Shown here one piece after another: positions 13,695-14,896 of a stretch of 64,000 nt of DNA. Each line of letters begins with the position of its first letter. The stretch's first letter is position 1. Below the pieces are notes generated by a model. It had not been told where the DNA came from. It worked only from the letters and a program-made list of their open reading frames with translations, and ran no database searches. The translations under genes were made by a program, and so were the position numbers. This stretch comes from Hyphobacterium sp. CCMP332 (GTDB lineage: Bacteria; Bacteroidota; Bacteroidia; Cytophagales; CCMP332): positions 2,458,001 through 2,522,000 of the forward strand of contig CP058647.1 of NCBI GenBank assembly GCA_014323545.1, in the 5' to 3' direction.

Positions 13695-14039
13695 GCCAGG
13701 CAGTAGCGCCAGCTCCCGACGACTCTAATGCTATCAGAATTATTCGTAGAAAACTCTGATTTTAATTTTAGGATTGGCTCCGCCGATCCCATTCATGATA
13801 TCTTGTGCAAACAAAGCCTACCTCACCTGGATCGGTTTTTTTCGGATGTTCCAAGGAATAAGAAAAATGATAGGAGGGATGATGAAATATCCCATTTTGG
13901 GTGGGCATGCACTGAATGTTACTGCTATCGCAGTACCCATTTTTTGTTTAATGAAGCTCTTTGAAACAAAATATCAATCGCATCCTTAAACAAAAAATCC
14001 CGGGCTTTCACCCGGGACTCATTCAGTGCAGAGGAGGAG
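13695..14039. repeat. Direct duplication, copy 1 (31-bp outer block and 271-bp core)
   Basis: The core 13769-14039 equals 14129-14399 at an offset of exactly 360 bp with only two differences that I can see (13779 T/A and 13919 T/G). A separate outer block, 13695-13725, matches 14086-14116 at an offset of 391 bp, so copy 1 carries about 31 bp more between block and core. The core includes the tRNA terminator (relic here at 13990-14017) and ends with the last ten acceptor-stem bases of the tRNA-Ser gene, after which copy 1 runs into unrelated sequence. Copy 1 therefore looks like the 3' flank of a former tRNA-Ser gene whose body is lost. Short reading frames inside it are not convincing genes. 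The stretch 13636-13694 before it holds nothing that I recognise. Confidence 0.93.
13990..14017 (-). terminator. Relic tRNA terminator inside duplication copy 1
   Basis: Identical to the terminator at 14350-14377: a 7-bp GC-rich stem (TCCCGGG with CCCGGGA) followed, on the minus strand, by six T. No intact tRNA lies upstream of it, only ten bases of a tRNA-Ser 3' end at 14030-14039. Confidence 0.7.
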
Positions 14040-14055
14040 AGGACGGAACGTAAAG

Positions 14056-14077
14056 AAAAGCTCCGGTGGAGCTTTTT
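14056..14077. terminator. Bidirectional terminator-like hairpin between the two duplication copies
   Basis: A nine-base stem, AAAAGCTCC with GGAGCTTTT, around a GGT loop. It carries A and T tracts on both sides, so it could stop transcription in either direction. It lies in the 46-bp non-duplicated segment between copy 1 and copy 2. Confidence 0.6.
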
Positions 14078-14085
14078 AGTGACGT

Positions 14086-14399
14086 GCCAGGCAGTAGGGC
14101 GAGCTCCCGACGACTCGGATGATTTTACTAGGATTGGCACCGCCGATCCCATTCATGATATCTTGTGCAAACAAAGCCTACCTCACCTGGATCGGTTTTT
14201 TTCGGATGTTCCAAGGAATAAGAAAAATGATAGGAGGGATGATGAAATATCCCATTTTGGGTGGGCATGCACTGAATGGTACTGCTATCGCAGTACCCAT
14301 TTTTTGTTTAATGAAGCTCTTTGAAACAAAATATCAATCGCATCCTTAAACAAAAAATCCCGGGCTTTCACCCGGGACTCATTCAGTGCAGAGGAGGAG
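14086..14399. repeat. Direct duplication, copy 2 (attached to the intact tRNA-Ser)
   Basis: Second copy of the block described at 13695-14039: outer block 14086-14116 and core 14129-14399. Here the core continues into a complete tRNA-Ser gene on the minus strand, so this is probably the parental arrangement and copy 1 the derivative. The near-perfect identity over 271 non-coding bases indicates a recent event or ongoing gene conversion. Confidence 0.93.
14350..14377 (-). terminator. Rho-independent terminator of tRNA-Ser
   Basis: On the minus strand, 12 bases beyond the tRNA 3' end, a TCCCGGG/CCCGGGA stem with a six-base loop (14358-14377) is followed by six T (complement of 14352-14357). 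Confidence 0.85.
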
Positions 14400-14780: not shown

Positions 14781-14896
14781 GTGGTTCAACGGTTTTTCCC
14801 GAAGGGATCCCTTTGGGACAAGACCGCCGCATTCCCCGAAGGGACCACTATGTGACGACCACCCTGCCTTTCGGCAGGTAAATCTGCCACTCCTCT
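14781..14896 (-). pseudogene. tRNA-Ser pseudogene: 5' part only, with three hairpin insertions
   Basis: Compared with the intact tRNA-Ser, this minus-strand copy keeps the 5' acceptor strand (14884-14896), part of the D-arm (14843-14849), D-loop to anticodon (14819-14834), the anticodon 3' side (14787-14796) and a weak match to the variable arm (14781-14786). The T-arm and 3' acceptor are missing. Three insertions separate these pieces. A 22-bp one at 14797-14818 splits the anticodon between its second and third base and forms two tandem mini-hairpins. An 8-bp one at 14835-14842 creates a CCC-GAA-GGG hairpin in the D-loop. A 34-bp one at 14850-14883 contains CCTGCC-TTTC-GGCAGG. It cannot make a working tRNA. 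Confidence 0.85.

Follow-up and report, generated by a model that had tools for sequence, protein, structure and literature searches.

A displaced, hairpin-interrupted half of a serine tRNA gene beside a tiny GIY-YIG nuclease gene, and similar arrangements at other bacterial tRNA genes

tRNA genes are the classic landing sites of large integrative elements. Islands of the integrase type make the tRNA whole again when they insert there, and a partial duplicate of it stays behind. REP/RAYT palindromes are short and come without target duplication. Other close systems come from phages and mitochondria. SegB of phages T4 and T6 is a free-standing GIY-YIG homing endonuclease of the tRNA region, implicated in breaks of tRNA-containing DNA and in the tandem amplification of units consisting of tRNA and nuclease genes, and its growth inhibition is lost upon removal of 28 C-terminal residues (PMC2988022, PMC13096335). 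The work on SegB also indicates that donor alleles are generally cut poorly, and hairpins receive no mention in it (PMC13096335). In the mORFs of fungal mitochondria, known from atp6 of Allomyces and from atp6, atp9, cox2 and nad3 of Glomus, an endonuclease gene enters a host gene and supplies a replacement end, with the native end being displaced beyond it (PMC3630166). Mitochondrial double-hairpin and repetitive hairpin elements, in turn, are short hairpins found in RNA genes and dispersed through the genome (PMC2800124). For bacteria, the open-access literature yielded no description of tRNA-associated GIY-YIG elements or of hairpin-interrupted tRNA remnants.

The odd sequence described here lies within a 64-kb stretch of the Hyphobacterium sp. 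CCMP332 genome, which is referred to as the window. It is the front half, now displaced, of a gene for serine tRNA, with a very small nuclease gene and a full-length tRNA as neighbours. All features of the locus are on the minus strand, where they follow each other as the broken 5' half of tRNA-Ser(TGA) (14896 to 14787), the gene of an 81-aa GIY-YIG nuclease (14766 to 14521; Pfam PF01541), and the intact tRNA-Ser(TGA), which is the working copy (14473 to 14388; ARAGORN; Rfam RF00005, 58.9 bits). The nuclease gene was missed in the earlier note. It is the only open reading frame between the relic and the tRNA, and no integrase gene was found there. What had been called a tRNA pseudogene is indeed a broken tRNA copy, but really a displaced half within a GIY-YIG cassette arrangement. 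On the 3' side of the intact tRNA there is a hairpin of the form TCCCGGG-N6-CCCGGGA (14358-14377), probably a terminator, with a second copy at 13998-14017. The region 13770-14399 consists of a direct repeat of about 270 bp with 360-bp spacing, in which 13770-14039 repeats about 14130-14399, the tRNA-Ser 3' end and the terminator hairpin included. Because this repeat carries the tRNA 3' end, tRNA-Ser remnants are found on both sides, the second one, detected by a period-360 comparison, comprising the final 12 nt of tRNA-Ser(TGA) shifted 360 bp in the 3' direction (14028-14039).

Compared with the intact gene, the broken half has nt 1-46 all present, with 0 bases changed or lost (chain score 34), as blocks corresponding to nt 1-14, 15-21, 22-36 and 37-46. 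In the tRNA sense it reads AGAGGAGTGGCAGA | TTTACCTGCCGAAAGGCAGG | GTGGTCG | TCACATAGTGGTCCCTTCGGGG | AATGCGGCGGTCTTG | TCCCAAAGGGATCCCTTCGGGA | AAAACCGTTG, where the inserts, as previously claimed, are genuine extra DNA relative to a tRNA template otherwise unbroken in sequence. Their sizes can be read in two equivalent ways, 34/8/22 or 20/22/22 bp, summing up to 64 bp both ways, because GTGGTC occurs twice and makes the boundaries of insert 2 ambiguous; the sizes of 22, 8 and 34 bp given in the earlier note are thus a valid parsing, but not a unique one. With the 20/22/22 parsing, all three inserts are located in loops: insert 1 (TTTACCTGCCGAAAGGCAGG, 20 bp, 14863-14882) at 14^15 in the D-loop, insert 2 (TCACATAGTGGTCCCTTCGGGG, 22 bp, 14834-14855) at 21^22, also in the D-loop, and insert 3 (TCCCAAAGGGATCCCTTCGGGA, 22 bp, 14797-14818) at 36^37 in the anticodon loop. 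Under this parsing, the proposed sites in the anticodon loop and the D-loop stand, and no insert falls in the D-stem. Perfect mini-hairpins had been reported for every insert. According to folding energies compared with those of shuffles, this is true of insert 1 and of insert 3, which is made of two 11-bp hairpins (z -5.0 and -3.6, respectively), both being clearly non-random, but not of insert 2, a weak double hairpin with one of its two stems closed by a T.G pair and no better than its shuffles (z 0.03). An adjacent pair of 11-bp hairpins was found once, at this locus, in 464 kb of the genome (the window together with 20 samples of 20 kb at even spacing, from which the bulk genome statistics were taken), with 0.2 expected, and a search of 118 related genomes located TCCCNNNGGGATCCCNNNGGGA twice, each time within a broken tRNA-Ser(TGA) copy.

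The nuclease matches PF01541 (E 2.7e-15) over residues 4-67 of its 81, so that the catalytic domain fills most of the protein and no separate DNA-binding region is evident in it. The GIY-YIG motifs can be read in its sequence as YIL..YYG, NRLKDH and KKEMFFKS, and its nearest solved chains are UPF0213 proteins. Relatives were gathered from GTDB genomes and from 148 genomes of the order, and a same-strand tRNA lies at most 310 bp away in 48 of the 77 distinct proteins, a frequency that, like the others among these relatives, is not unbiased because sampling began from similarity to this nuclease. Several of the remaining genes sit at contig ends, and several loci come from metagenome bins. Apart from a single exception, the nearby tRNAs share the strand of the nuclease gene. 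Of the 48 tRNA-adjacent loci, 40 have a partial copy of that tRNA beyond the nuclease gene, and perfect GC-rich hairpins of 6 bp or more are present in 24 of these 40 copies (expectation 2.1), with the relic and hairpin thresholds having been set after the first examples had been looked at. The true share is probably higher, since some matched stretches start just past the hairpin (L050, L024, L047), and in other cases the whole arm has been swapped for a hairpin (L040, L084, L032, L141).

Two orders can be distinguished among these loci: broken 5' half, GIY-YIG gene and intact tRNA, as in the window, and its mirror, formed by intact tRNA, GIY-YIG gene and broken 3' half. Some loci consist of tandem arrays with three or four units of nuclease and relic (L083, L081). 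The arrangement is spread over Bacteroidota, Ignavibacteriota, Nitrospirae, Phycisphaerales and Patescibacteria, mostly as metagenome bins outside Bacteroidota. In a nuclease tree with few alignment columns and weak support, the tRNA isotype labels need 23 changes, compared with 33.3 after shuffling (0 of 200 shuffles as low), and both orders are found within the Ser, Arg and Val groups. The nearest relatives of this nuclease are located at tRNA-Ser(TGA) of Litoribacter and at tRNA-Ser(GGA) of another genome (G063). A TAnnTTTG promoter box precedes 7 of the 24 5' relics and 0 of 24 intact copies; the ancestral position is thus occupied by some of the relics. GIY-YIG genes without a tRNA nearby, considered as a source of the hairpins, are confounded by contig edges, and several clean cases are devoid of hairpins. 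One diverged GIY-YIG gene of this genome (L068, about 250-643; G000:C1, about 152450-152850), with no tRNA near it, is flanked by the palindromes CCCCGCATGATATGCGGGG and TCCCGGATAATATCCGGGA.

Partial tRNA copies are not restricted to nuclease loci. With a cut-off score of 13 or more, 15 of the 33 tRNA genes of this 3.33-Mb genome (G000) have a partial copy of their own within about 1 kb, compared with 6 of 858 mismatched pairs, and in a sister genus (G001) the figures are 10 of 33 and 9 of 825; many of the relics in both genomes have no adjoining nuclease. No clear excess emerged when a few tRNA loci each of three further genomes from the order were sampled (0 of 9 in G077; 0 of 8 in G129; 1 of 8 in G006, against a null of 16 of 216), which makes relic density lineage-dependent. 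G006 gave no GIY-YIG match; relics are nevertheless present at the GIY-YIG loci of G077. Some relics have features of their own. Upstream of the intact tRNA-Pro(GGG) near 338,400 of this genome, five tandem 100-bp units (L122, 586-1085, reverse strand) each combine the first 12 nt of that tRNA with a hairpin and with the acceptor strand copied in inverted form. The two genera, represented by G000 and G001, share orthologous tRNA-Pro(TGG) relics (L110, 1532-1582, and L176, 1382-1430) that have kept both hairpins, with a compensating change from C-G to T-A, and whose spacer has diverged. In L030 (2882-2958) and L063 (1721-1796), the anticodon arm is replaced by a TCCCG...CGGGA hairpin and ARAGORN calls the copies tRNA-SeC and tRNA-Lys, respectively, showing how relics mislead annotation.

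The site in the window can be followed across genomes, since a tRNA-Ser(TGA) gene beside a BrkB-family gene is common to this genome, G001, G116 and Litoribacter. An orthologous site without inserts, which had been suggested as a check, does exist: the syntenic tRNA-Ser of G001 (L196), with the same BrkB neighbour, is an empty site. In G116, the site holds a hairpin-bearing broken copy without nuclease, whereas the site of this genome holds a broken 5' half plus the nuclease, and that of Litoribacter a broken 3' half, the nuclease and a short 5' remnant. The BrkB-linked site seems to have been hit repeatedly. The two copies of the tRNA half in this genome are identical, and the same half is also identical in Litoribacter, making a foreign origin of the rebuilt half unreadable. 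When the relic was used as query against the DNA of 59 genomes, this genome alone gave matches, probably because short, broken blocks score too low.

When the inserts are considered as a class, 30 of 43 non-redundant ones fold better than 95% of their shuffles, a level reached by 9% of length-matched noncoding DNA. Judged by stems at the insert ends, 14 of 48 have stems of 5 or more, with 2.1 expected; this rule is too strict for double hairpins, and folding energies were used in its place. Their sequence styles include CCTGCCTGCCGGCAGGCAGG, doubled TCCCnnnGGGA, TCCGCCnnnGGCGGA in single or doubled form, and TCCCGA...TCGGGA, and in several loci the hairpin substitutes for an entire tRNA arm with no insertion. 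The clustering in loops proposed in the earlier note applies to all three inserts of the window under the alternative parsing, but is weak over all cases (20 of 33, with 14.9 expected, p = 0.055), and strict loop targeting was not retained. Hairpins recur at many sites, and the result that would have refuted the earlier note, inserts confined to this locus, did not occur.

The inserts could be dispersed palindromes of the REP or MITE type that a Y1/RAYT transposase had moved and that landed in a tRNA pseudogene by chance, as would befit short palindromes without target duplication, and four G020 copies of the 20-mer CCTGCCTGCCGGCAGGCAGG do lie inside a longer dispersed repeat. However, copy number is tiny: the whole 3.3 Mb contain 6 instances of the CCTGCC palindrome typical of the CCTGCCTGCCGGCAGGCAGG style when 2 mismatches are allowed, tRNA relics accounting for at least 3, and the exact 20-mer occurs at 9 loci in 118 genomes, of which 3 are in tRNA relics and 4 in the G020 repeat. 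The doubled TCCC style was found at 2 loci in 118 genomes, both being broken tRNA-Ser(TGA) copies. Moreover, G001 and G077, both of which bear hairpins, yielded no Y1 transposase, and this genome only two weak matches. These whole-genome and 118-genome pattern counts rule out a dispersed repeat family and, together with the distribution of Y1 transposases, make a REP/RAYT origin very improbable. In the G020 repeat (L203, L206, L207 and L208, near 1501), the palindrome is central, with CGTCATTGCGAGGGAG...GAACGACCGAAGCAATC or similar sequences around it. A free-standing process of mini-palindrome insertion, as the earlier note envisaged, is not supported, with the hairpins concentrating in displaced halves instead of being dispersed through the genome.

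A different possibility is a mutational process specific to tRNA-like DNA, such as cruciform or slipped-strand repair, perhaps following nuclease cuts, that would write palindromes into any unneeded tRNA copy, leaving hairpins without a role. The variable sequence styles, the replacement as well as the interruption of arms, the lack of strand bias and the different palindromes found at the same junction (21^22) of the tRNA-Ser relics of this genome and G116 would all agree with it. Even so, we find this unlikely, given that the identical 20-mer CCTGCCTGCCGGCAGGCAGG is shared by relics of different tRNAs and genera, and that hairpins are already in place in relics with no other change. Selection could also act on the RNA: the displaced half would be co-transcribed with the working tRNA, and hairpins would be selected to lock it into a harmless local fold, unable to pair with the tRNA or to engage tRNA-processing enzymes. 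The shared strand of tRNA and nuclease genes, with its single exception, the conserved and compensated hairpins of the tRNA-Pro(TGG) relics, and several relics in which the old acceptor strand pairs with an inverted copy speak for such insulation. Nonetheless, the inserts are more stable on the transcribed strand in 12 cases versus 23 (p = 0.09, in the opposite direction), compared with 28 versus 2 for tRNAs; without a transcript-strand bias they look like DNA palindromes rather than an RNA element, and we give RNA-level insulation a low probability too.

The reading that we favour, and that we consider reasonably probable, is that a compact homing-type GIY-YIG cassette entered tRNA-Ser(TGA), leaving a palindrome-interrupted half and a rebuilt intact tRNA. 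This is based on the GIY-YIG gene lying between the two copies, the link to tRNAs in 48 of 77 relatives, the hairpins in 24 of 40 partial copies, the empty site of G001 and the tandem arrays; the isotype-grouped nuclease tree, the presence of both orders and the promoter boxes fit a cassette with isotype preference. Fungal mORFs and SegB serve as precedents for how it would work, and inserts without a strand preference are what DNA palindromes would give. Both entry and movement are deduced from comparative evidence throughout. The original 5' half would have stayed on one side, and on the other a second 5' half would have served to restore a complete tRNA. The nuclease would cut intact genes for tRNAs of its own isotype, and the cassette would be installed by recombination via the tRNA halves; if it carried a segment with the order A-hairpin-B, recombination between this segment and a chromosomal tRNA A-B, before or after the hairpin, would produce both orders, and repeated cutting the tandem arrays. 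Against homing, the protein is a bare catalytic domain with no evident DNA-reading part, and many relics of this genome and G001 lack a nuclease. The two tRNA halves are identical and give no sign that the rebuilt one is foreign. Furthermore, the rebuilt tRNA is an intact target, and self-cutting would therefore have to be weak.

Within the homing-type cassette, the palindrome may act on the DNA: the displaced copy would lose its target and the direct repeat its continuity, which would protect this copy from renewed cutting and keep it from being used for reverting or corrupting the working gene. We put this role forward as the likeliest one, though with less than even confidence. The compensating change in tRNA-Pro(TGG) hints at RNA-level selection, and the absent strand bias is also compatible with a passive mutational origin. 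A bolder version, which we regard as rather doubtful, would see here a minimal bacterial mobile element made of a single GIY-YIG domain in tRNA genes, with the DNA hairpin as an obligatory part of its life cycle. The hairpin, defined by shape and not by sequence, would then label or create the displaced tRNA copy, and the nuclease itself would make or recognise the palindromes.

The three-part arrangement at many tRNA genes suggests genes of a poorly known kind, able to take up residence there without destroying the tRNA gene. If true, this would be a far smaller inhabitant of tRNA genes than those classically known, with about 0.4 kb and one 80-aa nuclease, sparing the tRNA and present in several phyla. 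The hairpins would be its regular signature, with target immunity, a recombination barrier or a nuclease product as candidate roles, and the relics would record how one essential family of genes has been invaded again and again.

With free-standing GIY-YIG homing endonucleases, this system shares the catalytic motifs, the location beside the target, the empty orthologous site and the target-specialised lineages; we call it homing-type, and not a member, because the separate DNA-binding region of the classical enzymes has no evident counterpart in it. SegB resembles it in being a GIY-YIG gene at tRNA genes and in the tandem units of tRNA and nuclease. However, SegB is a phage protein, whereas here a bare 81-aa domain is found in bacterial chromosomes, together with a split tRNA and a hairpin-marked broken copy. 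As in the mORFs, the native end is displaced beyond the nuclease gene and the working gene is rebuilt, but those involve mitochondrial protein genes with foreign replacement ends and a displaced part without a described hairpin, whereas the bacterial tRNA genes have identical halves and hairpins in the displaced one. The mitochondrial hairpin elements likewise lie in RNA genes as short insertions of one or two hairpins; here, by contrast, the hairpins concentrate in displaced tRNA halves by a nuclease, with one 11-bp pair in 464 kb. REP/RAYT palindromes are similar in their short length and lack of target duplication, and differ in being high-copy and in their Y1 transposase, absent from G001 and G077. 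Finally, as in integrase islands, the tRNA is restored and a partial copy is left, but in this case by an element of about 0.4 kb with a GIY-YIG open reading frame only, and with hairpins in the remnant.
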